DNA of 64,000 nucleotides from an uncultured Verrucomicrobiales bacterium (lineage in GTDB: Bacteria > Verrucomicrobiota > Verrucomicrobiia > Verrucomicrobiales > Akkermansiaceae), in assembly GCA_937928735.1 (NCBI GenBank), contig CALFVF010000011.1:62001-126000 (forward strand), written 5' to 3'. The notes under the pieces were generated by a model. It worked only from the letters and a program-made list of their open reading frames with translations, did not search any database and was not told the origin of the DNA. This document shows positions 9,596 to 63,456 of this stretch, piece by piece (position 1 is the stretch's first letter; each line of letters begins with the position of its first letter). A program made the position numbers and the translations under genes.

Positions 9596-11674
9596 TTAAA
9601 AGGTGTGAGACCCACGGAAGGCGGGGCTGAGAATGAGGTGCTTAAGGAGAGTGCGGAAGCGGTAGTTATCTTTGGCACTTTGCTGGACAATGGTGTCAAT
9701 GGAGGCCTGGTCGAGGGCGGTGAGGTCTCGGCTGAGTGCGTAGGTGAAGAGGTGGGCAGTGAAGGCTTTGGCGAAGCGTTCTGGTTCGGCCACTAGGCCT
9801 TCTTTGAATTCTTTGATATTACTAAATGGGTATTTACGGAAGAGAACACCACTAGAGTCCACTGGGCGGCCATTGGCGTAGGTGTCTCTCCAGCGGCCAA
9901 TGACATCGTAGTTTTCTAGGGCAAACCCTAGTGGGTCGATGGTCTTGTGGCATTCCGCACAGTCCTTGCGTTCACGGTGAATGGCGAAGACTTCACGAAT
10001 TGTCTTATCTTTGAGACTAGCATGAGAATCATCCTCTGGCAAGGTAGGGACATCTGCTGGTGGTGGCTCTGGAGGGTCATTGAGAATCGTGCCTAGTAGC
10101 CAAGCACCACGCGTGATCGGGTGGGTTCTCTCCGTACCTGAGGTCATGGAGAGAGTGGCGGCATTGGTGATGATGCCACCGACTTGGGGATCATCGAGAG
10201 CGACTCTGTAGAACTCTGTGGCGCCAATTTTTGGGCGTTTTGGCAGTTTGCCTGTCTGGTAGAAGGAATCGAGCTCTTTACTTCGGTAGGTGAAATCAGG
10301 CTGGATGAAGTCAAAGATACTGCGGTTTTCAATCAATATAGTCTCAAAGAGCAAGAGGGGCTCAGACTGCATCCACATACTGGTGCGGAACTGACCGTGG
10401 TAGAAGCCGGGGAATTTCTCCCGATTAGGCTGAGAAGAAATCAGGCGGTCGAGCTGCAGCCACTGGGAACCGAAGGCATCACAGAAGCGCTTCATTTTCT
10501 TGTCATTGAGCAGACGCTCGACCTCCTTGGAGAGAATGTCAGGATTGAGTAGGGAGCCATCTTTGGCGAGCTTTCTTAAAGTGGAATCAGGAACGCTACC
10601 GTGGAGAAAGAAGGAGATCTTACTTGCGAGGTTCTGGGCAGCGAGTTGTTGGCTCTCTTCTTGGGAATTTGTCTCTGGTTGATTCTCCGAGGTCGTCTCG
10701 GAGCTAAGCTCTTCGCTCTGGTGATAGAGGTAGAGGAATTTGGGGGAAACTAGGGCAGCGGCACAGACTGCTTTCATCGCTGTGGTGTGATCGTCTCCAG
10801 CATCGCGTTTGTCCCAGTAATAGCTGGTGTATCTCTGCAGTGTTTCCTCACTCACATCACCTCGGAAGGCTGCTGTGAGAAAGGGTCGTAAGCGTTTCTT
10901 GAGATTCGTCTTTTGCTGTGCGAGTTCACGGTGAGGTTCTTTGGGTGGGGTAAAGAGCTGATTCCAGACACCCACGGTCTTTTTGTTAAAATTACTACTA
11001 TTGACGATAGAATTCGCCAGCGTGAAGAAGGAGCGCATCAGCAGGGGGGAGAGAGAAAGGTGGTCTCCACGGTTATCGTAGCCGTGCTCGGCGCGTAGAT
11101 CCTGTGGGTAGGCGCTCACGCCGATGAGGCGGCGCTCAGAGAGCTGATCTTTACCGAGTGGGCGGCTTCCTACTTTGAGGGTATCGGGCATTTTACCCGT
11201 ACTTGGGTCAAAATACTTAGAATGGTCTCGCATCATGCGCTCGGGCAGGGAGTAGACCATGACCTTGAGTCCAAAAATATCCTTCACCGCATTAGCGTAC
11301 TGGAATCTCGTCATACGCCGAATTGGCGCAGGTGGTGAGCTCGCGGCACTCTTGGACTCAAGCGCGCTATCGAGAATAGATTGAAGGCTTGTGATGAGCT
11401 GGCTTCTCTCCTCGGGCGTGGGCTGAGGCTCATCCTCTGGGGGCATATCCTCGTACTCTAGTGCCTCGATCACTTGGTCGAGTAGATCAGGATGGTTCTT
11501 CATGTCTGCGAGTGAGCGTATGTCGCGCAGATCCACTTTCCCTTTCACTTTGTCATTCTCCCCATGGCAGGAGAGGCAGTGCGTCTGCAGGAGCTCTAGT
11601 GTGGGTTCAGCCACCACTGGGAAAGATCCCATAAAGTAGAGTAAGAGCAGGAAGAGCGAAAATGAATGGTTCAT
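9596..11674 (-). CDS. Exported c-type cytochrome-like protein of the DUF1587/1595/1592/1588/1585 family
   Basis: 692 residues with a signal peptide (hydrophobic 7-20, cut after VVA). A haem-binding motif CLSCH is at 33-37, in the planctomycete-type cytochrome region. A second CxxCH (CAECH) lies in the DUF1588 region, followed by IDPLGFALENYDVIGRWRD. The order and length fit the large family that pairs with DUF1552. The N-terminal half includes RMTRFQYANAVKDIFGL (DUF1587-like) and the C-terminal 75 residues (FRKYPFSNIKEFKEGL onward) are DUF1585-like. It is the first gene of a two-gene operon with DUF1552 and diverges from an AraC regulator, which may control it. The substrate is unknown; a role in periplasmic oxidation of carbohydrate is commonly assumed. 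Confidence 0.88.
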   Translation of the reverse strand: MNHSFSLFLLLLYFMGSFPVVAEPTLELLQTHCLSCHGENDKVKGKVDLRDIRSLADMKNHPDLLDQVIEALEYEDMPPEDEPQPTPEERSQLITSLQSILDSALESKSAASSPPAPIRRMTRFQYANAVKDIFGLKVMVYSLPERMMRDHSKYFDPSTGKMPDTLKVGSRPLGKDQLSERRLIGVSAYPQDLRAEHGYDNRGDHLSLSPLLMRSFFTLANSIVNSSNFNKKTVGVWNQLFTPPKEPHRELAQQKTNLKKRLRPFLTAAFRGDVSEETLQRYTSYYWDKRDAGDDHTTAMKAVCAAALVSPKFLYLYHQSEELSSETTSENQPETNSQEESQQLAAQNLASKISFFLHGSVPDSTLRKLAKDGSLLNPDILSKEVERLLNDKKMKRFCDAFGSQWLQLDRLISSQPNREKFPGFYHGQFRTSMWMQSEPLLLFETILIENRSIFDFIQPDFTYRSKELDSFYQTGKLPKRPKIGATEFYRVALDDPQVGGIITNAATLSMTSGTERTHPITRGAWLLGTILNDPPEPPPADVPTLPEDDSHASLKDKTIREVFAIHRERKDCAECHKTIDPLGFALENYDVIGRWRDTYANGRPVDSSGVLFRKYPFSNIKEFKEGLVAEPERFAKAFTAHLFTYALSRDLTALDQASIDTIVQQSAKDNYRFRTLLKHLILSPAFRGSHTF

Positions 11675-25375: not shown

Positions 25376-28309
25376 ATGAAATTCACTTGGAAAGCCTGCT
25401 ATGTGCTACCAACAGTCATTCTTTTCGCTACGAGTTGCGGGCAAGAGAAGGACTCGCAGGCTCAGAGTGAGCGCGAGAGGTCAGAAGAGCTGGCTCTCGA
25501 AACTTCATTCGAGTTACCTGAGCAAGTTTCTTTTAATGAGCATATTCGGCCAATATTTAATGCGAACTGCACGTCGTGTCATGGAGGTGTGCAGAAGGCG
25601 GGTGGTTTATCGTTGATATACAGGCATTTAGCTCTAGGAGAAACGAAGTCTGGGGAGCGTGCCATTGTGGCAGGAGATAGGGCAAGTTCACATATTCTGG
25701 AGCGAATCCAGAGTGATGATGAGGATGATTTGATGCCGCCACCAGATCATGGGCCTAGACTCGGTGAGTACGATGTCGCTCTGATTAAGCGCTGGATTGA
25801 TCAAGGTGCAGAGTGGGAGGTGCACTGGGCATTTGAGCCACCTGCTGTGACCTTGCTAGAGGAAGATATAGATAGGAAGAAGAAAGCTTCTGGCATTGAT
25901 ACTTATATTGCCGCAGAATGGGCAAAGCGAGGACTCGAGCCCACAGAGAGGGCCTCACCAGAGGAGCTTTTACGGAGAATGCATTTTGATATCATTGGCC
26001 TGCCGCCGACCATAGAGGATCTTGATACATTCATAAAGGCATACAGCAAGGATAGCCAGCAAGCTGTGTCTGATGCACTCGACACGTTATTAGAGTCACC
26101 CCATTATGGAGAGCGCTGGGCTTCGGTGTGGATGGATCTGGCACGCTACGCAGATAGTGAAGGGCTCGGCGTGGATCGCCGCTGGACGGTCTGGCCATAC
26201 AGAGACTGGCTCATTCGGGCTTATGATAGTGATATGCCATTTGATGCATTCACTCGCAAGCAGCTTGCAGGGGACTTGCTGGAGGAGCCTCAGCTTGATG
26301 ATCTCTTGGCGACGACATTCCACAGGCTCACTCCTTCCAATAACGAGGGAGGCACAGATGATGAAGAGTTCCGGGTGACTGCCGTCATGGATAGAGTGAG
26401 TACGACGTGGGAGGCTTGGCAAGGGCAGACCTTTAGCTGTGTCCAGTGTCATTCTCACCCTTATGACACCTTTGATCACGAGGAGTATTATAAGTTTTAC
26501 GCCTTCTTTAATCATACCGCAGACGCGGATAAGGGCAATCACCACCCGACACTAGCTGTTCCCAAGAACTATACACACTATAAGGACTCGTCGGCTCTCC
26601 TCCCTAAGCACCGTAAAACTCTCAGCGAGCTACTCCAATTAGGCCAGCATCTGGATCAAACAGCCATTTGGAAACCACTCACCGATTCTCACCTAACAAC
26701 AAAAGGCACAAAGGCCAGTATCGTTATAAAGCCAACGGGGGATGAGGTGCAGGCTGATGGTGTTCTTCGTAAGCGTACATTGTATAAAGTCAGGTGGCAG
26801 CCTAAGGACACGACTATCGATGCCCTAAAGCTGGAGATCTTTCCCAAGAACGCGGATGAGGCGCGAGTGTTTGGCGAGAATGGATTTATATTAGGCTCCG
26901 TGGAGCTGGTGCACATAAAGTCCGATGGGGAGAAGGAAGTTATCGCGCTCACTCGTATTTTACCAGATAGAGAGCCTGAGCTGGGAGCTTGGGATGATAG
27001 TCTGAAGCCTAAGAACAAGTCTGGCTGGGGTGCTTACGCAAAGCTCTATGGCAAGCGCCGTGTGATTTTAGTACCTAAGGAGAGTATTGAGCTGAAAGCA
27101 GGGGAGGAACTTGAGCTCGGAATGAATTTCCCACAGGTCTATCTCTCAAGTTTTGCTTTGGTTCCTTCCAAATTAAAGCTTTCCCATTCTCATGGAGAAC
27201 TCTGGCAAAGTGCTCGCAAGAACTATGATGACTTGGTCAAAGACTATCATAAGACAAAACAAAGCCTAGCGAAGTTAGGGAGTCAGAAGGTTCCTGTGAT
27301 TCATCAGCTGCCAGAGGGAGTGGAGCGACCAACAGCTGTATTTGTTCGCGGAAATTGGCGAGACCACGGCAAGGAAATTACCCAGCCAGGCGTGCCTGCG
27401 AGCTTGCCCCCTCTGGAGGTCGAAGGAGAAGTGCCAACTCGCCTCGATATGGCGAATTGGCTCGTGAGTGGTGCGAATCCTCTGACCTCTCGTGTGTTTG
27501 TGAATCGCATTTGGCAGCAGTTGTTTGGTCGAGGTATTGTGGAGACTCTAGAGGACTTTGGTAGCTCAGGAATCGCCCCCACGCACCCAGAGTTACTTGA
27601 TTATTTGGCCATCCAGTTTCAGGATACATATGGCTGGAGTCAGAAGAAGTTACTGCGTGAGATCGTACTTTCCCAAGTCTATCAACTCAGTGCGACAGTG
27701 TCTGATGGGAAGCGTGCACTAGATACCTCGAATCAATACTACAGCTATGGGTCTCGCAGGAGGCTACGAGGAGAGGCGATTCGTGATATGTCGCTGAGTG
27801 TTTCGGGATTACTATCCGCTAAAAAATTCGGCCCCCCAGTGTTCCCACCACTCCCCGCAGGAGTGTGGAAGCCATTTGATAAAAAAGATAAATGGAGCAC
27901 GCCAGAGCCAGGGCATGAAGACCGCTACCGAAGAGCACTCTACACCTACTGGAAGCGCAGTATTCCCTATCCATCACTCCTCGCCTTTGATGCGCCCACG
28001 CGCGAGGTCTGCTCAAAGCGACGACTTGTGAGTAATACACCGATTGCAGCTCTAACAACATTGAATGATCCAGCATTTGAGGAATTCACAGAAGCCTTTG
28101 CGCAGAGGATGCTGAAGCACTCTGATCGAGAAGTGAGAGATAAAATCTCTTATGGATACCGCCTGGCTACCTCCCAAACACCGAGCTCAGAGACTCTCGA
28201 TGATCTAGTGGCACTCTACCAAATCAATCATAACTCCCAATCTGAGAATCTCGCGATGAACCTAGTGGCCTCAGTGATTCTTAACCTTGATCTCACTCTA
28301 ACCAAATAA
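25376..28309 (+). CDS. Planctomycete-type cytochrome c protein with DUF1549 and DUF1553
   Basis: 977 residues. The export signal ends in ATSCGQ (Cys21), a possible lipobox. The haem motif CTSCH is at 65-69 in the planctomycete cytochrome domain, which continues through DDLMPPPDHGPRLGEYDVALIKRWIDQGAEW. DUF1549 follows (about 170-380), with DTYIAAEWAKRGLEPTERASPEELLRRMHFDIIGLPP and a second CxxCH (CVQCH), then an intervening region and DUF1553 (about 690-960), with RLDMANWLVSGANPLTSRVFVNRIWQQLFGRGIVET. The downstream DUF1501 gene starts right after the stop codon. The pair is a PVC-bacterial hallmark, often linked to sulfated polysaccharide use, but the reaction is unknown. Confidence 0.92.
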   Translation: MKFTWKACYVLPTVILFATSCGQEKDSQAQSERERSEELALETSFELPEQVSFNEHIRPIFNANCTSCHGGVQKAGGLSLIYRHLALGETKSGERAIVAGDRASSHILERIQSDDEDDLMPPPDHGPRLGEYDVALIKRWIDQGAEWEVHWAFEPPAVTLLEEDIDRKKKASGIDTYIAAEWAKRGLEPTERASPEELLRRMHFDIIGLPPTIEDLDTFIKAYSKDSQQAVSDALDTLLESPHYGERWASVWMDLARYADSEGLGVDRRWTVWPYRDWLIRAYDSDMPFDAFTRKQLAGDLLEEPQLDDLLATTFHRLTPSNNEGGTDDEEFRVTAVMDRVSTTWEAWQGQTFSCVQCHSHPYDTFDHEEYYKFYAFFNHTADADKGNHHPTLAVPKNYTHYKDSSALLPKHRKTLSELLQLGQHLDQTAIWKPLTDSHLTTKGTKASIVIKPTGDEVQADGVLRKRTLYKVRWQPKDTTIDALKLEIFPKNADEARVFGENGFILGSVELVHIKSDGEKEVIALTRILPDREPELGAWDDSLKPKNKSGWGAYAKLYGKRRVILVPKESIELKAGEELELGMNFPQVYLSSFALVPSKLKLSHSHGELWQSARKNYDDLVKDYHKTKQSLAKLGSQKVPVIHQLPEGVERPTAVFVRGNWRDHGKEITQPGVPASLPPLEVEGEVPTRLDMANWLVSGANPLTSRVFVNRIWQQLFGRGIVETLEDFGSSGIAPTHPELLDYLAIQFQDTYGWSQKKLLREIVLSQVYQLSATVSDGKRALDTSNQYYSYGSRRRLRGEAIRDMSLSVSGLLSAKKFGPPVFPPLPAGVWKPFDKKDKWSTPEPGHEDRYRRALYTYWKRSIPYPSLLAFDAPTREVCSKRRLVSNTPIAALTTLNDPAFEEFTEAFAQRMLKHSDREVRDKISYGYRLATSQTPSSETLDDLVALYQINHNSQSENLAMNLVASVILNLDLTLTK

Positions 28310-29800
28310 ATGATGCTCGATATTTTCCAGAAAGCCCAAGCAGAGAGTTTACAGCACACCACTAGGCGTCATTTTCTCAAACAATGCGCCACAGGACTTG
28401 GTGGCCTATGGATGGGACTGGAAGGGCAGCAGCTCATGGGAGCCTCAGGATTGATAGACATCGACCATGGAAGAGGCACACCCTTCTCACCTCTGGCACC
28501 ATCTTATAGGGCGCGGGCGAAGCGAGTCATCTTTATTCATCTCATTGGGGCTCCGAGTCAGTATGAACTCTTTGCGCACAAACCAGAGTTAGTGAAGTAT
28601 GATGGCAAAACGTGTCCAGACGCATACCTAGAGGGGCAGAGATTTGCCTTCATATCAGGGAAGCCCAAGATCATGGGGCCAATTTATCCAATGAAGCAGC
28701 ATGGTGAATCAGGGGCATATTTTTCTGACCGACTCCCACATCTCTCGAAGCACGCAGATGATCTCTGCTTTATACATTCCATGCAGACTGATCAGTTTAA
28801 CCATGGCCCCGCCCAGCTCATGATACAGACTGGTAATGCGAACTTGGGCCACCCCTCCATTGGCTCATGGGTCAGCTATGGACTAGGGTCTGAGAATAGT
28901 AACTTACCAGGCTTTATGGTATTGCTCTCAGGAGGTCGATTACCTCGTGTAGGGAAGAGTCTCTGGGGCTCTGGCTATTTACCGAGTGTGTACCAAGGTG
29001 TGCAGTGTCAGTCAGGGCCAAGTCCGATCTTAAACGTGCAGAACCCAAAGACCGTGAGTTCCTCCATGCGCCAACAAGCCCTTGACACACTAAAAACAAT
29101 CAACCAGCGATCTTACAAAGAGTACGGGGATCCTGAAATTCTCACAAGAATCGCGCAGTATGAAATGGCATTTCGGATGCAAAGCTCAGTGCCAGAAGTC
29201 ATGGATATCACCAGTGAAGACCCAAAGACCCTAGAGCTCTACGGCGCAAATCCCGGGAAAGAATCACTGGCCAATAATTGCTTGTTAGCGAGAAAACTCG
29301 TGGAGAATGGAGTCCGCTTTGTCCAACTCTATGACTGGGGCTGGGACTCACATGGTTCGAGTCAGAGTGAGGCGCTGAATGGAGGATTTAAGAATAAGTG
29401 CCGACAGATGGATCAGCCAGTTTCTGCGCTACTCACAGATTTAAAACAAAGAGGTCTGTTAGAAGATACGCTCGTGGTCTGGGGTGGTGAATTTGGTCGA
29501 ACTCCTATGCAAGAGAATCGTGGTGGAGGTGAAATGGCATTCCAAGGAAGAGACCATAACCCTAACTCATTTAGCATGTGGATGGCAGGTGCTGGCGTGA
29601 AGCCCGGACTAAGCTACGGTGAGACAGACCCTCTAGGCTATCATGTAGAGAAGAACCCAGTGCACGTGCGCGACTTACATGCCACAATGGTACATATGTT
29701 AGGGTATGATCACGAGCGTCTAGCAGTTCCCTTCCAAGGGCTGAATCAGAAACTGACTGGTGTGAAAAAAGCGAAGGTCATCCACGAACTCTTCATGTAA
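28310..29800 (+). CDS. DUF1501 protein, Tat-exported
   Basis: 496 residues. A twin-arginine signal (TTRRHFLKQCATGLGG) begins at about residue 17. The family core follows: RVIFIHLIGAPSQYELFAHKPELVKYDGK, HGPAQLMIQTGN, HPSIGSWVSYGLG, then FVQLYDWGWDSHG, LVVWGGEFGRTPM, GRDHNPNSFSMWMAGAGVKPG and VHVRDLHATMVHMLG. DUF1501 resembles sulfatase/alkaline phosphatase folds but lacks a proven reaction. Its ATG directly follows the stop of the DUF1549/DUF1553 gene (no gap), indicating one transcript and coupled translation. Confidence 0.92.
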   Translation: MMLDIFQKAQAESLQHTTRRHFLKQCATGLGGLWMGLEGQQLMGASGLIDIDHGRGTPFSPLAPSYRARAKRVIFIHLIGAPSQYELFAHKPELVKYDGKTCPDAYLEGQRFAFISGKPKIMGPIYPMKQHGESGAYFSDRLPHLSKHADDLCFIHSMQTDQFNHGPAQLMIQTGNANLGHPSIGSWVSYGLGSENSNLPGFMVLLSGGRLPRVGKSLWGSGYLPSVYQGVQCQSGPSPILNVQNPKTVSSSMRQQALDTLKTINQRSYKEYGDPEILTRIAQYEMAFRMQSSVPEVMDITSEDPKTLELYGANPGKESLANNCLLARKLVENGVRFVQLYDWGWDSHGSSQSEALNGGFKNKCRQMDQPVSALLTDLKQRGLLEDTLVVWGGEFGRTPMQENRGGGEMAFQGRDHNPNSFSMWMAGAGVKPGLSYGETDPLGYHVEKNPVHVRDLHATMVHMLGYDHERLAVPFQGLNQKLTGVKKAKVIHELFM

Positions 29801-54752: not shown

Positions 54753-54892
54753 TTGAAACAAACGTTCAAATGCTTTATTTATACAAATAAATATAATATT
54801 TGATTGCCATCTATGGACTTAGATAGCTAGTTTCAAACTTACATTTGGGGGATTAGGAAGTCGTAAGCGTGAGCTTGCGGCTTCCGTTTTTT
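54753..54892 (+). ncRNA. Candidate small RNA ending in an orphan terminator
   Basis: A TTGAAA hexamer (54753-54758) and a TATTTA hexamer 17 bases further on could be a promoter. A transcript from about 54788 would run about 105 bases to the terminator at 54892. There is no plus-strand gene upstream that this terminator could serve: the sulfatase points away. The promoter is weak and the RNA is inferred. Confidence 0.5.
54856..54892 (+). terminator. Orphan rho-independent terminator
   Basis: A 13-bp stem with two G-T pairs (54856-54868 with 54873-54885), a GTGA loop and then G followed by six T. The complementary strand has no T-run after the stem, so it works only on the plus strand. Confidence 0.88.
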
Positions 54893-55077: not shown

Positions 55078-55977
55078 ATGCCCACCGATGACGTAGAAAC
55101 ATTAGCTTGGTTAGATACTTTTATTGAGCGTGAAGCCCTTCCTCTTTCATTTAGAGAAGTAGCGATAAAATACTACCTTCCACTTGCCGATCAGGTGAAA
55201 ACTTGGAGCGAGTACACCAAGGGAACTTACTTTCTAGGACTCAATGGTGGTCAGGGGACAGGGAAGTCGACGCTGGCAGCATTACTAGCACTCATTCTGC
55301 GTGAACACCATGGTTTGAGCACGGTGGTGGTGTCTCTGGATGACCTTTATCTGCCGAAGGCCACGCGCGAAGAACTCGCCGAGCAGGTGCATCCTCTCTT
55401 GCAAACAAGAGGTGTGCCGGGCACGCATGATATGGAACTCGCTCTTGAGTTATTTGAACATGTGGCGCAGGGGCGTGCTGTGGAATTTCCAGTCTTTGAT
55501 AAGGCGGTGGATGATCGTAGCTCTCAGCTCACAAACCCTGTGGCGGCAGAGACAGATATTTTCCTCTTTGAGGGATGGTGTGTGGCAGCTTGTGCGGAAG
55601 ACTCAGTGAGTGAGCCAGTGAATGACTTTGAGGCTCAATATGATCCAGATGGCCTGTGGCGGCAGTATGTGAATGGACAGTTAGCGGGGCATTATCAGAC
55701 TCTATTTGGCTACCTAAATCACCTCGTGATGCTTAAGGCACCGAGTTTTGAGTGCATTTATACTTGGCGGGGCTTACAAGAGCAGAAGCTCGCCATGCGT
55801 GTGCAGAAGGAGGGGGGGGAGAGCTCGGGGGTGATGTCTGAGGAAGAACTCATTCATTTCATCAGTCACTATGAGCGCCTCACTCGGCATATGCTGGAAG
55901 AAATGCCCTTGCGAGCGGGCGTGGTCATCGAATTAGCAGAAGACCATTCTGTCTCTGGCGTGAAAGGAGTGCTGTGA
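55078..55977 (+). CDS. Glycerate kinase (D-glycerate 3-kinase type)
   Basis: 299 residues, P-loop kinase. Walker A is FLGLNGGQGTGKSTLA (residues 52-67), then VVVSLDDLYLPKA and HPLLQTRGVPGTHD, PVFDKAVDDRS and LFEGWCVA, matching the GLYK/YggC-type glycerate kinases related to phosphoribulokinase. It turns glycerate and ATP into 3-phosphoglycerate. Its place ahead of a phosphoglycerate-sugar phosphatase and the GT81-GH13_18 gene shows its role: recapture of the glycerate released when glucosylglycerate is broken down. Its stop overlaps the next start by four bases (GTGA at 55974). Confidence 0.88.
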   Translation: MPTDDVETLAWLDTFIEREALPLSFREVAIKYYLPLADQVKTWSEYTKGTYFLGLNGGQGTGKSTLAALLALILREHHGLSTVVVSLDDLYLPKATREELAEQVHPLLQTRGVPGTHDMELALELFEHVAQGRAVEFPVFDKAVDDRSSQLTNPVAAETDIFLFEGWCVAACAEDSVSEPVNDFEAQYDPDGLWRQYVNGQLAGHYQTLFGYLNHLVMLKAPSFECIYTWRGLQEQKLAMRVQKEGGESSGVMSEEELIHFISHYERLTRHMLEEMPLRAGVVIELAEDHSVSGVKGVL

Positions 55978-56867
55978 GAGAGCTTAAAACAGATCCGAAG
56001 AAGCCGACCAAGCTGCTGGTCATCACAGATCTTGATAGCACCCTCCTCAATGAAGACTACAGCTTCATGGAAGCGTGGGGAGTGATGCGTCAGCTGAAGC
56101 TGCAAGGATTCCCAATTGTCTTTAATTCGAGTAAAACGCTCGCAGAAATGGAAGTTTTAGCCCAAGAGATGGGGCTGCATGCCCCTATGGTGGCTGAGAA
56201 TGGTGGTGTCTTGTGTTTGCCTGTATCAGAGCAATGGCAAGACAGCATTCAGAGTGGGACTGTGAAGGAGGCCATGGAATATGAGGCGTGTGGAAATTAC
56301 TGGGTGCATACTCCTGGTCTTGATCGTGAGCGTATTTTAGCTGTGGCACACCAGCTGAGAGAGGCGCATGGCTACGACTTTGAGGGATACGGAGACTGGT
56401 CTGTAGAGGATGTGGTAGAACACACGGGCTTGGATCCTGTTTCTGCGCAGCAGTCTCTGCAGCGAGTGGCCACAGAGCCGATTCTCTGGCAGGATAGTGA
56501 AGAAGCTTGGGTGGTCTTTGAGAAGCAGCTCGTGAGTGAGGGCATCAGAGTGCTTAAGGGTGGGCGCTTCCTGCACTTGATGGGAGAGCCTGATAAGGCC
56601 GATGGCTTGCGCTCCATACAGGCGCTCTACGCGCACCAGGAGCCTGATGTGCAGTGGCTAACAGTGGTACTCGGGGATAGTGAAAATGACTTGGGAATGC
56701 TCAGTGCCGCGGATATAGCGGTCGTGATCCCCAGAGAGGATGGTGTGGAGATCGAACCGGTAGCCGTAGAGGTGATTCGACCCAAGGGGCTCGCATCAGC
56801 TGGCTGGGCAGAGGCCATGCGGTTGATCTTAGAGAGAGTGGAAAGAGTTAGGATTAGAGAAGTTTAG
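55974..56867 (+). CDS. Mannosyl/glucosyl-3-phosphoglycerate phosphatase (HAD family)
   Basis: 297 residues starting with GTG 55974. The HAD nucleophile motif is LVITDLDSTLLN, motif II/III cap segments are MVAENGGVLCLP and LKGGRFLHLMGEPDKADGL, and motif IV is VVLGDSENDLGML. This is the MpgP/GpgP pattern that removes phosphate from mannosyl- or glucosyl-3-phosphoglycerate. As the downstream synthase is GpgS-like, the glucosyl form is more likely. A 12-base direct repeat (TTTAGAAATATA at 56863 and 56880) spans its stop codon and the short gap to the next gene. Confidence 0.88.
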   Translation: MRELKTDPKKPTKLLVITDLDSTLLNEDYSFMEAWGVMRQLKLQGFPIVFNSSKTLAEMEVLAQEMGLHAPMVAENGGVLCLPVSEQWQDSIQSGTVKEAMEYEACGNYWVHTPGLDRERILAVAHQLREAHGYDFEGYGDWSVEDVVEHTGLDPVSAQQSLQRVATEPILWQDSEEAWVVFEKQLVSEGIRVLKGGRFLHLMGEPDKADGLRSIQALYAHQEPDVQWLTVVLGDSENDLGMLSAADIAVVIPREDGVEIEPVAVEVIRPKGLASAGWAEAMRLILERVERVRIREV

Positions 56868-56901
56868 AAATATAAAAAATTTAGAAATATAGAATTAAAT
56901 T

Positions 56902-59880
56902 ATGGGTGATTTTCATCAACATGGCGTTGTCACAACGCTGCATCAGCTAAAAAGCCGCTCTCTAGAGAGCCTGGAGAATGATCTTGTGGAGTTTCGCAAA
57001 AAGCGCCCCCTCGCCTTGATCTTGCCCTCCCTATACTCCGAACTAGAAGGGCCGGCTCTCTCAAGAATTGTGAATGAAATCGCAGCCGTGCCCTATCTAG
57101 ACCAGATTGTCGTGGGGCTTGATCGTGCGACGAAGGAAGAATACTGCAAGGCACTGGAATTCTTTAGTTTACTGCCTCAAGCACCGCAGATTCTCTGGAA
57201 TGATGGGCCGAGGCTGCGCCAGATCGACGCCTTGCTCAAGGCAAAGGGTCTGGCCCCTAAGGAGCCGGGTAAGGGCAGAAATGTCTGGTACATGTTTGGC
57301 TATGTGCTGGCGGCAGATAAGGCCGAGGCGGTAGCGATCCACGACTGTGATATCACGACATATAGCAGAGACCTTCTCGCACGGTTAATCTACCCCGTAG
57401 CACATCCGGGCTTCAGCTATAAGTTCTGTAAGGGCTATTACGCTCGTGTGGCGAACCAAACGATGAACGGGCGAGTGTGTCGCCTACTGGTGACACCCCT
57501 GCTGCGAGCGCTAAAGAAGGTCTGTGGAGAGAATAAGTACCTCGAATACCTCGATAGCTTTCGCTATCCCTTGGCAGGAGAATTCTCTCTCTCCAGAGAC
57601 GTGTTAGAGGATCTGCGTATTCCCTCAGACTGGGGGTTAGAAATGGGCATCCTCTCTGAGATGCAGCGCAACTATGCGACCAATCAGATCTGTCAGGTGG
57701 ATATTGCCGATACCTATGACCATAAGCACCAAGACCTATCACTAGATGATAAGCAAAAGGGTCTCTCAAAGATGAGCATGGATATCGTCAAGTCCCTTTA
57801 TCGTAAAATGGCCACACAGGGCGAGGTATTTTCCATGGAGAAAATCCGCACGCTCAAGGCCTCCTACTACAGAGTGGCACTGGATCTCGTGGATGCCTAC
57901 CATGATGACGCGGCAATGAATGGTCTGAGTTATGATCGACATAAGGAGGGGGCTGCGGTCGAGCTCTTTGCACAGAATATCATGGATGCTGGCTATGACT
58001 ATCTGGATCCTAAGAACTCCATGGAGGTGCCCTTTATGCCGAGCTGGAAGCGTGTTGTTTCCGCGGTGCCAGATGTGTTAGATCGGCTAGCAGAGGCTGT
58101 GCGTCTCGACATGGAGGAACATGGCAGTGGTCTAGTCTATGATATTAAGACTCACCCGAATGTTCTCCATCTCAAGCAGAAGCTCAAAAAACATATTTCG
58201 ATGATCTATGGAGTGGATGGCTCTGAGGAAATTGCGGAGGAGATCATCACTATAGCCAATATCGGCATCGAATCAGCAGCGACACTAGGCCAAGAGGATA
58301 AGTGGAATGAGCAAGATGTGATGCTCATTACTTACGGGAATTCGATCCAAGAAGAGGGGGAGATTCCACTGCAGACACTACGCCAGTTTCTAAACCAAGA
58401 GCTCGCGGATACGGTGAGTGCTGTGCACGTGCTGCCATTCTCGCCGTATAGTTCTGATGATGGGTTTTCAGTGATTGATTACCGCGCCGTAGATCCAAAC
58501 TTGGGAGAATGGCGTGATATTGCCGATCTCTGCTCAGAGTACGATGTGATGGGAGATCTAGTACTTAATCATTGCTCCGCGAAGTCTGAGTGGTTCCAGA
58601 ATTACTTGAGAGGGAAGAGCCCGGGGAAGGGCTACTTTGTGGAGGGGGCAGATTATGATGATCTCAGCCAAGTAGTGCGCCCGCGCAGCAGCCCACTGCT
58701 CCATAAGGTGCAGACAGTGAATGGGGAAAAGGAAGTCTGGTGTACCTTCAGTGAAGACCAGGTGGATCTGAACTTCGCCAATCCCCAAGTCCTTCTGGAG
58801 ATGCTGCGCATAATTAGACTCTACATGGATCATGGAGTTCGCTACTTCCGCCTCGATGCGGTGGCCTTTCTCTGGAAAGAATCAGGTACCAGCTGTGTGC
58901 ACCGACCACAAACACACGAGATCATTAAGCTCTTACGCCTAGTCATCGAGTCCATTGATCATACCGCAGTGGTGATCACAGAGACCAATGTTCCCAATAA
59001 AGAAAACCTGAGTTACTTCGGTGATCAGAATGGAGCGCACTTGATCTATAATTTCTCCCTGCCGCCGCTACTTCTCTACACCATGCTGAGTGGAGACTGT
59101 CAGCATCTGAACCGCTGGGTGATGTCGATGCCGCCAGCCAGACCAGGGAGAGCGTACCTTAACTTCATAGCCTCCCACGATGGTATCGGTCTGCGCCCAG
59201 CAGAAGACATTCTCTCAGAAGAGGAAATGGCCGCCCTTATGGGGCAAGTTCGCGACTTCGGAGGGGAAATTTCTATGCGAAGAGCACCCAATGGTGAGCT
59301 GAAGCCCTATGAGGCCAATATCGCACTCTTTGATGCCTTTAAGGGGACTATGGAGGGAGTCGATGAGCACCAGATAGCGCGCTACCTCTGCGCCCACACA
59401 ATCATGCTCGCACTGGAGGGACTACCTGCATTCTACATCCACAGTCTACTAGGTACGGAGAATCATATCTCAGGATTTGGGCAAACGGGTCAGCCGCGCA
59501 CAATTAATCGCTACCAGTGGAATAAGCAAGATCTCGAAGAAACTCTGGCTGACGGGCAGAAACATCATGGTGAGATTCTCTCCTCATTAAAGTCACTGAT
59601 TCAGCTGCGCAAGAAACAGCCCGCATTCCACCCGAATGCGACACAGTTCACCCTAAATCTCGGCCCATCATTCTTTGCCTTTTGGCGAGAGAGCATGGAT
59701 CGGACACAGAGCATCTTTGCGATTCATAATGTATCAAAGCATGAGCAAGAACTCAGTCTCAAAGACCTCAACTTGATCGAGACAGAACACTGGAAAGACT
59801 TGATATCGGGGCAAGTGTTTGAGAGCGAGCAGAAAGCACTCGTTCTACCAGCTTATGGTTGCTTATGGATTAGTAATTAA
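56902..59880 (+). CDS. Fused glucosyl-3-phosphoglycerate synthase (GT81) and glucosylglycerate phosphorylase (GH13_18)
   Basis: 992 residues in one unbroken frame. Residues 1-410 match GT81 GpgS: GKGRNVWYMFGYVLA, AVAIHDCDI (Asp148 and Asp150, the DxD metal site), YKFCKGYYARV, RYPLAGEFSLSRDVL and WGLEMGIL. Residues 460-992 match GH13_18: VHVLPFSPYSSDDGFSV, FRLDAVAFLWKESGTSC (nucleophile Asp652), VVITETNVPNKENLSYFG (acid/base Glu694) and NFIASHDGIG (Asp760). The RLDAVAFLWKE form fits glucosylglycerate phosphorylase better than sucrose phosphorylase. One protein would carry a synthesis step and a breakdown step; the phosphatase and the glycerate kinase upstream supply the others. Confidence 0.88.
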   Translation: MGDFHQHGVVTTLHQLKSRSLESLENDLVEFRKKRPLALILPSLYSELEGPALSRIVNEIAAVPYLDQIVVGLDRATKEEYCKALEFFSLLPQAPQILWNDGPRLRQIDALLKAKGLAPKEPGKGRNVWYMFGYVLAADKAEAVAIHDCDITTYSRDLLARLIYPVAHPGFSYKFCKGYYARVANQTMNGRVCRLLVTPLLRALKKVCGENKYLEYLDSFRYPLAGEFSLSRDVLEDLRIPSDWGLEMGILSEMQRNYATNQICQVDIADTYDHKHQDLSLDDKQKGLSKMSMDIVKSLYRKMATQGEVFSMEKIRTLKASYYRVALDLVDAYHDDAAMNGLSYDRHKEGAAVELFAQNIMDAGYDYLDPKNSMEVPFMPSWKRVVSAVPDVLDRLAEAVRLDMEEHGSGLVYDIKTHPNVLHLKQKLKKHISMIYGVDGSEEIAEEIITIANIGIESAATLGQEDKWNEQDVMLITYGNSIQEEGEIPLQTLRQFLNQELADTVSAVHVLPFSPYSSDDGFSVIDYRAVDPNLGEWRDIADLCSEYDVMGDLVLNHCSAKSEWFQNYLRGKSPGKGYFVEGADYDDLSQVVRPRSSPLLHKVQTVNGEKEVWCTFSEDQVDLNFANPQVLLEMLRIIRLYMDHGVRYFRLDAVAFLWKESGTSCVHRPQTHEIIKLLRLVIESIDHTAVVITETNVPNKENLSYFGDQNGAHLIYNFSLPPLLLYTMLSGDCQHLNRWVMSMPPARPGRAYLNFIASHDGIGLRPAEDILSEEEMAALMGQVRDFGGEISMRRAPNGELKPYEANIALFDAFKGTMEGVDEHQIARYLCAHTIMLALEGLPAFYIHSLLGTENHISGFGQTGQPRTINRYQWNKQDLEETLADGQKHHGEILSSLKSLIQLRKKQPAFHPNATQFTLNLGPSFFAFWRESMDRTQSIFAIHNVSKHEQELSLKDLNLIETEHWKDLISGQVFESEQKALVLPAYGCLWISN

Positions 59881-60315: not shown

Positions 60316-60546
60316 ATGAATCAACAAGGCAAAAAATTGAGTAAAGAATCCAGAATGCGCAGTGTTTACAAAGGTCTCACATGGAGAGTTTTGGCGACAT
60401 TGACGACGTATTTATTAGCATGGATCTTTACTGGTGACCTCGAGCAAGCCAGCAAGATCGCAGGTTTCGAGTTTGTGCTAAAATTTTTCATTTACTACGC
60501 CCACGAGAGAGCTTGGCAGATTGTGCCAAGCACCTCAAAATCATAG
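60316..60546 (+). CDS. DUF2061 membrane protein
   Basis: 76 residues from ATG 60316, giving the DUF2061 start KLSKESRMRSVYKGLTWRVLATLTTYLLAWIFTGD. One membrane helix, then a second weak one (AGFEFVLKFFIYYAHERAW). DUF2061 genes recur at the start of sulfate-assimilation operons, as here, 47 bases before cysC. Function unknown; perhaps linked to sulfate or APS metabolism. An open stretch upstream to 60265 is not part of the family. Confidence 0.82.
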   Translation: MNQQGKKLSKESRMRSVYKGLTWRVLATLTTYLLAWIFTGDLEQASKIAGFEFVLKFFIYYAHERAWQIVPSTSKS

Positions 60547-60593
60547 GCCAAAATCATAGTTGAAATACTTTTAACCCGTTCATTCACAAATCA

Positions 60594-61196
60594 GTGAGTA
60601 CCACTTCCAATAATATCCACCCAGAATTTCAGCGCCAGCTCCCCACAAGTGCCAAGGAGGCCTTGCTCGGGCAGCGCGGAGTCGTCGTATGGATGGTAGG
60701 GCTCTCAGGTTCTGGGAAGTCGACGATCGCTAATGCCCTAGAAAAGGAATTACACGCAGCGGGGCGCCTCGTTGCCATGGTGGATGGTGATAATTTACGC
60801 AGTGGACTCAATGCAGGACTTGGCTTTAGTGATGAAGATCGCTCAGAGAATATCCGCCGAGCCGCCGAAGTGGCCAAGATCCTCAAGCACAATGGACTCA
60901 TTACTTTAGTCACCCTCATCACCCCACAGGAGACCTTCCGCCAGCAGGTGCGCGAGATTCTCGGAGACGATCTCGTGCAGGTGTATGTGAAAGCATCCTT
61001 TGAGGCCTGCCGCGCACGTGATGTCAAGGGCCTCTACGCGAAGGAAGCGGCTGGGGAGATCAAGAATTTCTCGGGGAAAACATCCTCTTTTGAAGAACCA
61101 GAGCACGCCGATCTCGTCCTCGATACCGAGCGCGAATCCCTCGAGACCTGTGTCTCCACACTAAAAGAATTTATTGCGAAGAAAATTTCAATCTAA
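60594..61196 (+). CDS. cysC: Adenylylsulfate kinase CysC
   Basis: Phosphorylates APS to PAPS. 200 residues from GTG 60594. Walker A is WMVGLSGSGKST, followed by VDGDNLRSGLNAGLGFSDEDRSENIRRAAEVAKI, the APS-binding segment, and RDVKGLYAKEAAGEIKNFSG. The length is normal. The segment usually reading FISPY has VTLITPQETF, a small deviation. cysD begins seven bases after its stop. Confidence 0.94.
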   Translation: MSTTSNNIHPEFQRQLPTSAKEALLGQRGVVVWMVGLSGSGKSTIANALEKELHAAGRLVAMVDGDNLRSGLNAGLGFSDEDRSENIRRAAEVAKILKHNGLITLVTLITPQETFRQQVREILGDDLVQVYVKASFEACRARDVKGLYAKEAAGEIKNFSGKTSSFEEPEHADLVLDTERESLETCVSTLKEFIAKKISI

Positions 61197-61203
61197 CACG
61201 AAT

Positions 61204-62109
61204 ATGGCATCTTATTCATTATCTCACCTCAAACAATTAGAAGCAGAAGCTATCTACATATTGCGCGAAACTGCCGCTCAGTTTGAAAATCCAGGTTTAC
61301 TATTCTCAGGCGGAAAGGACTCCATTGTCATGGCGCACCTCGCCTACAAGGCCTTTCACCCAGCGAAGCTACCCTTCCCACTTGTCCACGTCGATACAGG
61401 GCATAATTTCCCAGAAACCATGGATTTCCGAGATCGCTTTGTCGAGAAACTTGGAGCGCGTCTAGTTGTCGGCAGTGTGCAGCAGTCCATTGACGAAGGA
61501 AAAGTGCAGGAAGAAACTGGGCCAGACGCTAGTCGGAATGCCCTTCAAACTGTGACTTTACTAGAAACCATCGAGAAAAACGAATTTGACGCCTGCCTTG
61601 GAGGTGGCCGCCGTGATGAGGAAAAGGCACGCGCTAAGGAGCGTTTCTTCTCCCACAGAAATGACTTTGGCGAATGGGATCCTAAAAATCAGCGCCCAGA
61701 GCTCTGGAATCTCTTTAATGGGCGCAAGCACATCGGGGAGAACTTCCGCGTCTTCCCACTCTCTAACTGGACAGAAATGGACATCTGGCAGTACATCAAA
61801 GAAGAAGATATAGAGCTACCTAGCCTCTACTTCGCCGCCGAGCGTGAGTGTCTCACACGCAAGGGCACAATTCTTGCGATTTCTGAGTTTGTTCAGCCTC
61901 GTGAGGGTGAAGTTGTTGAGAAGAAGAGCATTCGCTTTCGCACCATGGGAGATGCCACCATCACAGGAGCCGTCGAGTCAGTGGCTGTCGACTATGATGC
62001 GATCATTGAGGAAGTCGCCGCTGCTCGCCAGACAGAGCGAGGGAACCGCGCCGATGACAAGCGCTCAGAGACCTCCATGGAAGACCGTAAGAAAGAAGGT
62101 TACTTTTAG
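61204..62109 (+). CDS. cysD: Sulfate adenylyltransferase subunit CysD
   Basis: Small subunit of ATP sulfurylase, which makes APS from ATP and sulfate. 301 residues from ATG 61204. The PP-loop motif is LLFSGGKDSIVM, followed by VHVDTGHNFPETMDFRD, CLGGGRRDEEKARAKERFFS, PLSNWTEMDIWQYI, and the end SMEDRKKEGYF, which is characteristic. It is in an operon with cysC and cysN; 96 bases separate it from cysN. Confidence 0.96.
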   Translation: MASYSLSHLKQLEAEAIYILRETAAQFENPGLLFSGGKDSIVMAHLAYKAFHPAKLPFPLVHVDTGHNFPETMDFRDRFVEKLGARLVVGSVQQSIDEGKVQEETGPDASRNALQTVTLLETIEKNEFDACLGGGRRDEEKARAKERFFSHRNDFGEWDPKNQRPELWNLFNGRKHIGENFRVFPLSNWTEMDIWQYIKEEDIELPSLYFAAERECLTRKGTILAISEFVQPREGEVVEKKSIRFRTMGDATITGAVESVAVDYDAIIEEVAAARQTERGNRADDKRSETSMEDRKKEGYF

Positions 62110-62205
62110 GCCAAAGCTAATTTTTAGATCAAAGCCAATCAAACTAACACTCTACTAAGTACCCTAAAAGTACCCGAATTTAAAAATTTACACTCATAGT
62201 TACAC

Positions 62206-63456
62206 ATGGATCTCTTAAGATTTACCACAGCAGGCTCCGTAGACGACGGCAAATCCACCCTCATCGGGCGTCTACTCTATGATTCAAAATCCATTTTCGA
62301 AGATCAGTTAGAAGCCGTGGAAGTAAGCTCAAAAAAACGCGGTGACGAAGAAGTTAATCTAGCTCTTCTAACAGATGGATTGAAAGCCGAGCGCGAACAA
62401 GGCATCACCATTGATGTCGCCTACCGCTATTTCGCCACACCGAAGCGCAAGTTCATCATCGCAGATACACCCGGACACATCCAGTACACACGCAACATGG
62501 TGACGGGTGCCTCCACAGCAGATCTCGCGATCATTCTCATTGATGCACGCCACGGCGTGATCGAGCAGACTAAGCGCCACACCTTTATTGCGAACCTACT
62601 ACGTATTCAGCACGTCGTAGTTGCTGTGAATAAAATGGATCTCGTCGACTTCTCAGAAGAGCGTTACAATGAAATTGTCGAAGAATACCGCGAGCTCGCG
62701 AGTCGCCTTGGTAATATCGTCAATATCGAGATGATTCCTATCTCAGCTCTGCGTGGAGATAATGTCGTCGATAAGTCAGAGAAAATGCCTTGGTATGAAG
62801 GCGGCACATTACTCTATCACCTAGAGAACGTCTATGTCGGAGGAACTGAAAACCACGTGGAAGCACGCTTCCCCGTGCAGTGGGTGATCCGCCCGCACTC
62901 GAATGAATGGCACGACTTCCGTGGCTTCGCGGGCCGAGTCGCTGGTGGCGTCTTTAAACCAGGAGATGAAGTGTTAGCCCTCCCATCAGGATTTAAATCT
63001 ACGATTAAAACCATCCACACAGCAGACGGAGATTTAGAAGAAGCCTTTGCGCCTCAATCGGTCACCATCACGCTTAATGACGAGATTGATATCTCCCGCG
63101 GAGACATGATCGTGAAAGGCAATAATCCGCCAAAGAGCACTCAAGATATCGAAGCGATGGTCTGCTGGTTCGGCGAGCAACCTTTACAGCCGCGCGGCAA
63201 GTACATCATCCGCCACACCGAGCAGGAGACCAAAGCCGTGATCCAGTCACTCGACTACCAAGTGGATATTAATAATTTCCACAAAGTCGAAGACGCCACC
63301 ACTCTTAGCATGAATGACATCGGCCGTATTAAACTACGCACGGCCAAGGCCCTTCACGCTGACCCCTACGCGAAGAACCGCCACACAGGTTCCTTCATCC
63401 TAGTCGACGCCAGCTCGAATGAGACAGTCGCCGCTGGAATGATCGTGCAGCCGTAG
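62206..63456 (+). CDS. cysN: Sulfate adenylyltransferase subunit CysN (GTPase)
   Basis: Large subunit of ATP sulfurylase, an EF-Tu-like GTPase that drives APS formation. 416 residues. Motifs: G1 AGSVDDGKSTLIGRLLYDSK, G3 DTPGHIQYTRNMVTGAS, G4 NKMD, and domain II starting at QWVIRPHSNEWHDFRGFAGRV. It is a stand-alone CysN without a fused APS kinase, consistent with the separate cysC upstream. It is on the short side for the family. Confidence 0.96.
   Translation: MDLLRFTTAGSVDDGKSTLIGRLLYDSKSIFEDQLEAVEVSSKKRGDEEVNLALLTDGLKAEREQGITIDVAYRYFATPKRKFIIADTPGHIQYTRNMVTGASTADLAIILIDARHGVIEQTKRHTFIANLLRIQHVVVAVNKMDLVDFSEERYNEIVEEYRELASRLGNIVNIEMIPISALRGDNVVDKSEKMPWYEGGTLLYHLENVYVGGTENHVEARFPVQWVIRPHSNEWHDFRGFAGRVAGGVFKPGDEVLALPSGFKSTIKTIHTADGDLEEAFAPQSVTITLNDEIDISRGDMIVKGNNPPKSTQDIEAMVCWFGEQPLQPRGKYIIRHTEQETKAVIQSLDYQVDINNFHKVEDATTLSMNDIGRIKLRTAKALHADPYAKNRHTGSFILVDASSNETVAAGMIVQP

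Follow-up and report, generated by a model that had tools for sequence, protein, structure and literature searches.

A predicted bifunctional glucosylglycerate turnover enzyme formed by a synthase–phosphorylase fusion present in several marine bacterial groups

Introduction

Why would a bacterium carry an enzyme that builds a compatible solute and an enzyme that breaks it down on one and the same polypeptide? This question is raised by a three-gene locus of an uncultured Verrucomicrobiales bacterium (family Akkermansiaceae; GenBank assembly GCA_937928735.1, 2.65 Mb in 40 contigs), situated in a stretch of 64,000 nucleotides of contig CALFVF010000011.1 (positions 62,001 to 126,000, forward strand) that is referred to below as the window. 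The third gene encodes a 992-residue protein in which a half resembling glucosyl-3-phosphoglycerate synthase (GpgS) is followed by a half resembling glucosylglycerate phosphorylase (GGaP), and the two genes upstream encode a predicted glycerate kinase and a predicted phosphatase. We propose, with a probability of roughly 0.72, that this 992-residue protein acts as a bifunctional enzyme of glucosylglycerate turnover, whose two halves would be kept at a fixed 1:1 dosage and in the same place. An earlier examination of the letters alone (the sequence-only reading) had delimited the same three plus-strand open reading frames, which were recovered here at the same positions, and its calls of a synthase, a phosphorylase, a phosphatase and a kinase are borne out by the family and structure matches described below.

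Both halves of the fusion protein retain their key residues

The C-terminal half was assigned to GH13 in a Pfam scan, which revealed no extra domain in the fusion protein. Glucosylglycerate phosphorylases are marked by a (T/S)ETN motif and a Glu in loop A (PMC7178133, PMC10608839; this and all further PMC citations refer to parts of the respective papers), and both are present in this half. In the GGaP of Meiothermus silvanus (MsGGaP), Asn275 and Glu383 bind glycerate (PMC7178133); this enzyme lies outside our 87-row phosphorylase alignment, and its residues were paired with N696 and E804 of the fusion protein via the motifs. In that alignment, which includes E. coli YcjM and counts loci L049 and L100 twice, TETN is found in 86 rows and P802 in 85, while N696, D652, D760 and the rest of PYE, E804 included, occur in all 87. 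E694 of the TETN motif is presumably the acid/base residue, as in GH13 generally. Although sucrose and glucosylglycerol phosphorylases are the closest sequences in the PDB, identity to the solved phosphorylases of these kinds amounts to 22–26% in structure alignments, against 39.7% to E. coli YcjM (over 516 columns), and by this measure the C-terminal half is closer to GGaP than to either of them.

The N-terminal half matches the NCBIfam model GpgS_Meth (NF040724) from residue 3 to 406 (E = 1e-106; profile positions 2–401 of 402), and a PDB sequence search yielded weak matches (E = 1.3e-5 to 1e-4) to GpgS and to the mannosyl-3-phosphoglycerate synthase (MpgS) of Rubrobacter. When a predicted structure of this half alone (mean predicted local distance difference test score (pLDDT) of 88.9; predicted template modelling score (pTM) of 0.87) was compared via Foldseek, entries for GpgS of M. 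tuberculosis took the top four places (best E = 1.1e-12), with Rubrobacter MpgS at rank 5, indicating that the modelled GT-A fold is nearest to GpgS. Moreover, K124, D148, D150, L224, E227, E247 and H274 align with K114, D134, D136, L209, E212, E232 and H258 of M. tuberculosis GpgS (pairing read from the PDB alignment together with PMC2581804, which also describes what D134 and D136 do). None of the seven residues varies among 34 fused proteins (i.e., 33 of the 48 fused loci described below, plus the window). The Lys-Asp-Glu network, the DxD metal site and the His of GpgS are all present, and as far as sequence can tell neither half has lost an active-site residue. Compared to the solved GpgS enzymes, whose fold and key residues it shares, the synthase half is only about 20% identical, is joined to a phosphorylase, and has a PLAGEF loop in place of PLSGE.

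Since standalone synthases stop shortly past the position that is residue 406 in the fusion protein, and phosphorylases encoded on their own start with a stretch equivalent to residues from about 424, the linker between both halves is estimated at some 17 residues, with residues 424–468 belonging to the phosphorylase. The full-length predicted model (pLDDT of 82.0; pTM of 0.63) does not firmly predict the spatial arrangement of the two halves.

The neighbouring genes encode a likely GpgP and most likely a D-glycerate 3-kinase

The phosphatase, whose gene start overlaps the end of the kinase gene by 4 bp, scored 176.1 bits with TIGR01486 (MPGP family; cut-off of 164.75) without reaching the equivalog models of that family, and matches MPGP 3ztw in the PDB (E = 9.3e-21). 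It is a HAD-IIB phosphatase of the MPGP family and likely serves as GpgP. For the kinase, no Pfam family was found (pantothenate- and uridine-kinase models remained far under their cut-offs), and the best PDB matches were partial alignments to the D-glycerate 3-kinase 6ckg (E = 2.5e-17, spanning residues 37–168 of 299) and to GLYK 7xpc (E = 4.1e-11, spanning residues 52–266). Most likely it is a D-glycerate 3-kinase, predicted to return glycerate to 3-phosphoglycerate.

The fusion recurs in other genomes

To see how far the two-domain architecture extends, one genome per species was scanned with patterns derived from the window protein, yielding 75 related loci (a number that is not to be read as a prevalence, given that the patterns were taken from a fused protein). 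In 48 of these, synthase and phosphorylase share one frame, while 17 carry them as two genes on the same strand and 3 on opposite strands; 6 loci have a synthase only (some of them being cut by contig ends) and 1 a phosphorylase only. The fusion is thus not peculiar to the window genome, but is shared by several marine bacterial groups, i.e., mostly in Verrucomicrobiota, with Lentisphaera and Pontiellaceae in addition, and full-length fused loci span 987–1008 residues by match coordinates. A frame error between the domains, to which the sequence-only reading had considered its proposal vulnerable, is not the case: the fusion frame is open over 993 codons without internal stops, and the 48 fused loci stem from other assemblies (including the isolates Rubritalea profundi, R. 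marina and Lentisphaera marina) and are 55–68% identical, which excludes chance or a frame error. The probability that a sequencing, assembly or frame artefact had joined two genes is thereby practically nil; nothing was found in its favour, and this candidate was rejected.

Larger genome samples were evaluated by counting tabulated matches at E <= 1e-60, with only the best candidates per genome being scored. In the phylum of the window, 14 of 387 genomes carry the fusion (the window's own genome included, and G421, having a C-terminal piece only, left out) and 81 have any match. Among 294 Planctomycetota, 39 have a match and a single one is fused, namely the genome around which the sample had been drawn. 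No fusion was found in the 369 Gammaproteobacteria, 218 members of the Desulfobacter phylum and 296 Bacteroidota sampled, of which 51, 75 and 15, respectively, have a match. Among 11 other genomes of the window's own genus, 6 encode the full fusion, 1 has a fused frame cut by the contig start, 1 has its two halves at the ends of two contigs, and 3 have none, although two of these are 98% and 94% complete. Two further frames possibly represent other fusions, i.e., a phosphorylase match inside a 1122-codon open frame (G290:C170), and a synthase match that contains a single TGA and goes with a 1013-codon open frame (G1204:C218).

The fused proteins group together, and some split relatives are separated by in-frame stops

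The phylogenetic analysis left out 31 loci that were duplicates, near-copies or truncated, as well as L055 and L096, which are short. In the phosphorylase tree (92 rows), the 38 fused rows constitute one clade (SH-aLRT of 97) without any split row among them. In the synthase tree (82 rows), the fused rows likewise form one clade (97), with the single split row L093 inside; a purely fused clade was not rejected (p-AU of 0.563). Fused rows are mostly Verrucomicrobiota, interspersed with single Lentisphaera, Pontiellaceae, Planctomycetota and Hydrogenedentota rows, some of these single rows being metagenome bins.

Split pairs from Paraferrimonas, Pseudoalteromonas, Desulfobacter and Bacteroidales resemble the fusion in that homologous halves lie in the same order on one strand, yet they remain two genes. 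Counting duplicates, there are 47 same-strand split loci, and in 44 of them the phosphorylase frame has its first ATG between –50 and +142 bp relative to the synthase stop; two of the three outliers have the other gene order. In seven gammaproteobacterial genomes, a single match even covers the two halves, interrupted by one or two stops, and the frames agree across the junction in all seven (one of them, G913, being partial, with residues 219–931 and a further stop within the phosphorylase part). The simplest origin of the fusion is loss of the stop between adjacent co-directional genes, which most likely happened once.

In loci L121–L127, where gammaproteobacterial halves share a frame with stops between them, readthrough could at times give a fused product; L127 is partial and has a further stop in its phosphorylase part.

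Since the phosphorylase might also be translated separately from a hidden internal start, the junction was inspected in the window and in all fused loci but one (47 of 48); of the 48 rows so obtained, four were dropped for want of the anchor motif. An in-frame ATG is absent from the junction in 25 of 44 fused genes, and of the 19 that do contain one, only 1 has a Shine-Dalgarno-like stretch before it, a signal that is weak in this group because such a stretch precedes the gene itself in only 7 of 44. On these grounds, a hidden start was rejected.

The phosphatase accompanies the fusion more constantly than the kinase

Among the 48 fused loci, 47 have the phosphatase gene just upstream and 16 have the kinase of the window type (i.e., the local kinase). 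Because the phosphorylase would yield glycerate, a glycerate kinase is nevertheless expected somewhere in the genome. Of 38 fused genomes (37 loci plus the window), 22 lack the local kinase at the locus, and 18 of these carry another glycerate kinase family (PF02595 in 16, PF13660 in 2), as opposed to 1 of the 16 genomes with the local kinase (Fisher p = 6.7e-6). In the 4 others, none of the three kinase families was found, and a genome-wide search for the local kinase in nine genomes retrieved it in one. In two Bacteroidota loci (L059 and L068), a PF02595 glycerate kinase directly follows the phosphorylase, and no match to the window's phosphatase is present in the locus.

At five loci (L033, L034, L035, L036 and L099), kinase and phosphatase are themselves joined in one frame of 576–597 codons from stop to stop; the families of this frame were checked for L034, L035 and L099, where the kinase part scores weakly. 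This second fusion adjoins the synthase–phosphorylase fusion in three Pontiellaceae and Lentisphaera marina, so that the gene set is contained in two proteins there, while Pseudoalteromonas donghaensis combines it with a separate synthase and phosphorylase.

Features of the locus and its surroundings

The coordinates of the locus are collected in Table 1. Near the operon, an Rfam search for structured RNA gave two sub-threshold matches only (E = 0.23 and 0.83), and neither promoter consensus sites (4, versus a mean of 6.7) nor terminator consensus sites (4 versus 4.8) exceeded those in shuffled sequence. Upstream of the kinase gene, window positions 54856–54885 hold a terminator-like hairpin with a 13-pair stem and a T run behind it.

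Table 1. Genes, domains and motifs of the glucosylglycerate locus (window positions)
Feature	Position	Strand	Description
Kinase gene	55078..55977	+	299 aa; P-loop kinase, most likely D-glycerate 3-kinase
Phosphatase gene	55974..56867	+	297 aa, GTG start; HAD-IIB, MPGP family, likely GpgP
Fusion gene	56902..59880	+	992 aa, ATG start; synthase and phosphorylase in one frame
Synthase half	56902..58119	+	Residues 1-406 (end approximate); GpgS-like, GT81 type
DxD motif (D148-C149-D150) of synthase half	57343..57351	+	Located by alignment with 4y6n; conserved without exception in 34 fused proteins
Junction	58120..58170	+	About residues 407-423, variable, boundaries estimated; stop and new start here in split relatives
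Phosphorylase half	58171..59880	+	Residues 424-992 plus stop; standalone relatives begin with a part that 424-468 match
TETN motif	58978..58989	+	Residues 693-696; N696 predicted to bind glycerate (matched via motif to MsGGaP Asn275)
PYE of loop A	59305..59313	+	Residues 802-804; E804 predicted to bind glycerate (matched via motif to MsGGaP Glu383)

Just downstream (60316–63456), the genes for a DUF2061 protein, an APS kinase, a 311-aa protein and an EF-Tu-type GTPase make up a sulfate-activation-like cluster, in which the 311-aa protein and the GTPase are likely CysD and CysN, respectively. Inspection by eye of the first 60 residues of the neighbours at 13 loci, in lieu of an aimed search, showed no like cluster. 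Elsewhere in the window, a DUF1549/DUF1553 cytochrome protein adjoins a DUF1501 protein (25376–29800), and a DUF1588/DUF1592 protein is encoded at 9596–11674.

Proposed function and alternative explanations

Going by the family assignments, the gene set would have the whole cycle of building glucosylglycerate, splitting it and returning glycerate within its reach, with the activities of both halves, their substrates, their direction in the cell and their physiological role being predictions from sequence. The N-terminal half would transfer glucose from a nucleotide sugar to 3-phosphoglycerate, giving glucosyl-3-phosphoglycerate, from which the neighbouring HAD phosphatase would strip the phosphate to release the compatible solute glucosylglycerate. 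The C-terminal half would convert glucosylglycerate and phosphate into glucose 1-phosphate and glycerate, so that the energy of the bond is conserved in glucose 1-phosphate; the neighbouring kinase would turn glycerate into 3-phosphoglycerate again. The main effect of the fusion would then be to supply the make and salvage enzymes at 1:1 dosage in one place, and the net direction of flux could be set by nucleotide sugar and 3-phosphoglycerate on the one hand versus phosphate and accumulated solute on the other, without requiring a built-in switch.

The sequence-only reading had inferred tight switching from the union of opposed activities in a single chain, and running both directions at once would indeed waste nucleotide triphosphate. 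This inference is not supported: in the known pathway, the synthase product must pass the phosphatase before the phosphorylase can act, so that the halves are not directly opposed, and many relatives manage with adjacent or overlapping genes. A reciprocally regulated bifunctional enzyme is exemplified by 6-phosphofructo-2-kinase/fructose-2,6-bisphosphatase. To judge from the family assignments, the two halves here would not catalyse opposite reactions on the same metabolite pair, as an enzyme of that type does. A fusion whose halves regulate each other according to salt, phosphate or nitrogen state would fit with the conservation of the fused form and of its length over wide divergence (in one clade, apart from the single split row among the synthases) and with the frequent lack of a junction ATG for a separate second half. 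We nevertheless consider it unlikely, as the junction is short and variable, no further Pfam domain is present, synthase product and phosphorylase substrate differ in the known pathway, and the same gene set is kept in relatives with separate genes. Loss of a stop between adjacent or overlapping genes suffices to explain the fusion without a switch, and fixed dosage and proximity would be reason enough for it. Equally doubtful is the more elaborate notion that the fused chain and a kinase–phosphatase chain, as in Pontiellaceae, Lentisphaera marina and Pseudoalteromonas donghaensis, form a two-protein machine that holds the whole cycle of making, releasing, salvaging and re-arming, and flips with the phosphate and water status of the cell.

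The strongest competitor, to which we assign somewhat less than even odds, is that both halves are active but independent, their joining being merely tolerated. It draws on the short distances between split genes, on in-frame neighbours parted by a stop, and on the position of L093 within the fused clade, while the phosphorylase tree, in which no split row intervenes, speaks against it. Such a neutral fusion is compatible with the favoured turnover enzyme in all but the claimed benefit of dosage and proximity. By comparison, it seems improbable that both halves synthesize, with the phosphorylase running in reverse from glucose 1-phosphate and glycerate as a second, cheaper route to glucosylglycerate. 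Cell phosphate normally exceeds glucose 1-phosphate, which favours breakdown, and most fused genomes that lack the local kinase at the locus have another glycerate kinase family; the reversibility of GGaP phosphorolysis (PMC11009771) points the other way, as does the scarcity at fused loci of the local kinase, a would-be competitor for glycerate. We deem it just as improbable that the synthase half takes a mannosyl donor, or that its product feeds into mannosylglucosylglycerate, a solute produced by R. baltica (PMC13342039). This option is encouraged by the PLAGEF loop shared with Rubrobacter MpgS and by a phosphatase family named after mannosyl-3-phosphoglycerate, but is at odds with the glucosylglycerate phosphorylase motifs in the partner half and with the fact that the matching NCBIfam synthase models are GpgS models.

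A number of observations also weigh against the proposed turnover enzyme itself. NF040724 gave 357 bits with the synthase half versus a curated equivalog cut-off of 700, and a second NCBIfam GpgS model 75 bits versus 262 (a split relative likewise falls below both cut-offs). With PLAGEF in place of the PLSGE of mycobacterial GpgS, either glucose or mannose could, by sequence, be the donor sugar; a simple pattern retrieved PLAGEF in 61 of the 82 tree rows, PLSGEF in 4 and neither in 17. With the whole model, Foldseek ranked amylosucrases and sucrose hydrolases at 1–20, the phosphorylases following from rank 21 with a glucosylglycerol phosphorylase, and the phosphorylase half scored 187 bits with the sucrose phosphorylase model versus a cut-off of 334, which the annotated E. 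coli YcjM (212 bits) also misses. Two near-complete same-genus genomes, G002 and G004, are without the fusion protein. Finally, the kinase swap is only a hint, because independent changes are few (a single pair lies on supported branches) and because kinases of the substituting families are common, PF02595 being found in 5 and PF13660 in 4 of 14 control genomes.

Relation to known systems and significance

The pathway and its clustered genes are known, and GGaP genes often have genes for a glycerate kinase, GpgS or GpgP as company (PMC7178133). Such GGaP clusters (GH13_18, EC 2.4.1.352; e.g., those of Meiothermus silvanus and E. coli YcjM) resemble the window in phosphorylase motifs and types of neighbours (PMC7178133), but differ in that the phosphorylase of the window is the C-terminal half of a chain starting with the synthase. 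A comparable arrangement for an analogous solute is the phosphatase/synthase fusion GgpPS of Marinobacter with its neighbouring glucosylglycerol phosphorylase (GGP), where a fusion likewise lies in a make-and-salvage cluster with a GH13_18 phosphorylase adjacent (PMC10873239). GgpPS, however, joins two consecutive steps of synthesis, whereas the window fusion joins synthesis to breakdown. A fusion within the glycosylglycerate pathway is also represented by NF011072 (bifunctional mannosyl-3-phosphoglycerate synthase/phosphatase), the phosphatase part of which matches the window phosphatase (E = 1.3e-28); judging by the model name, it too combines consecutive biosynthetic steps, and no phosphorylase. 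No description of a synthase–phosphorylase fusion turned up among the open-access titles and abstract openings listed, a body that does not extend to the original GGaP paper and most subscription papers.

The metabolic function of GGaP is without experimental confirmation, and it has been suggested that the enzyme might regulate the level of the solute (PMC7178133). Because the phosphorylase is fused with the synthase, and this fusion has been kept over wide divergence, the phosphorylase would be tied to glucosylglycerate made by the cell itself rather than to an imported sugar. The fusion may thus provide a direct handle on solute turnover, as it comprises one gene with two separable active sites and has natural split counterparts that can serve as controls, and isolates such as Rubritalea marina DSM 17716 carry it for the study of such turnover.

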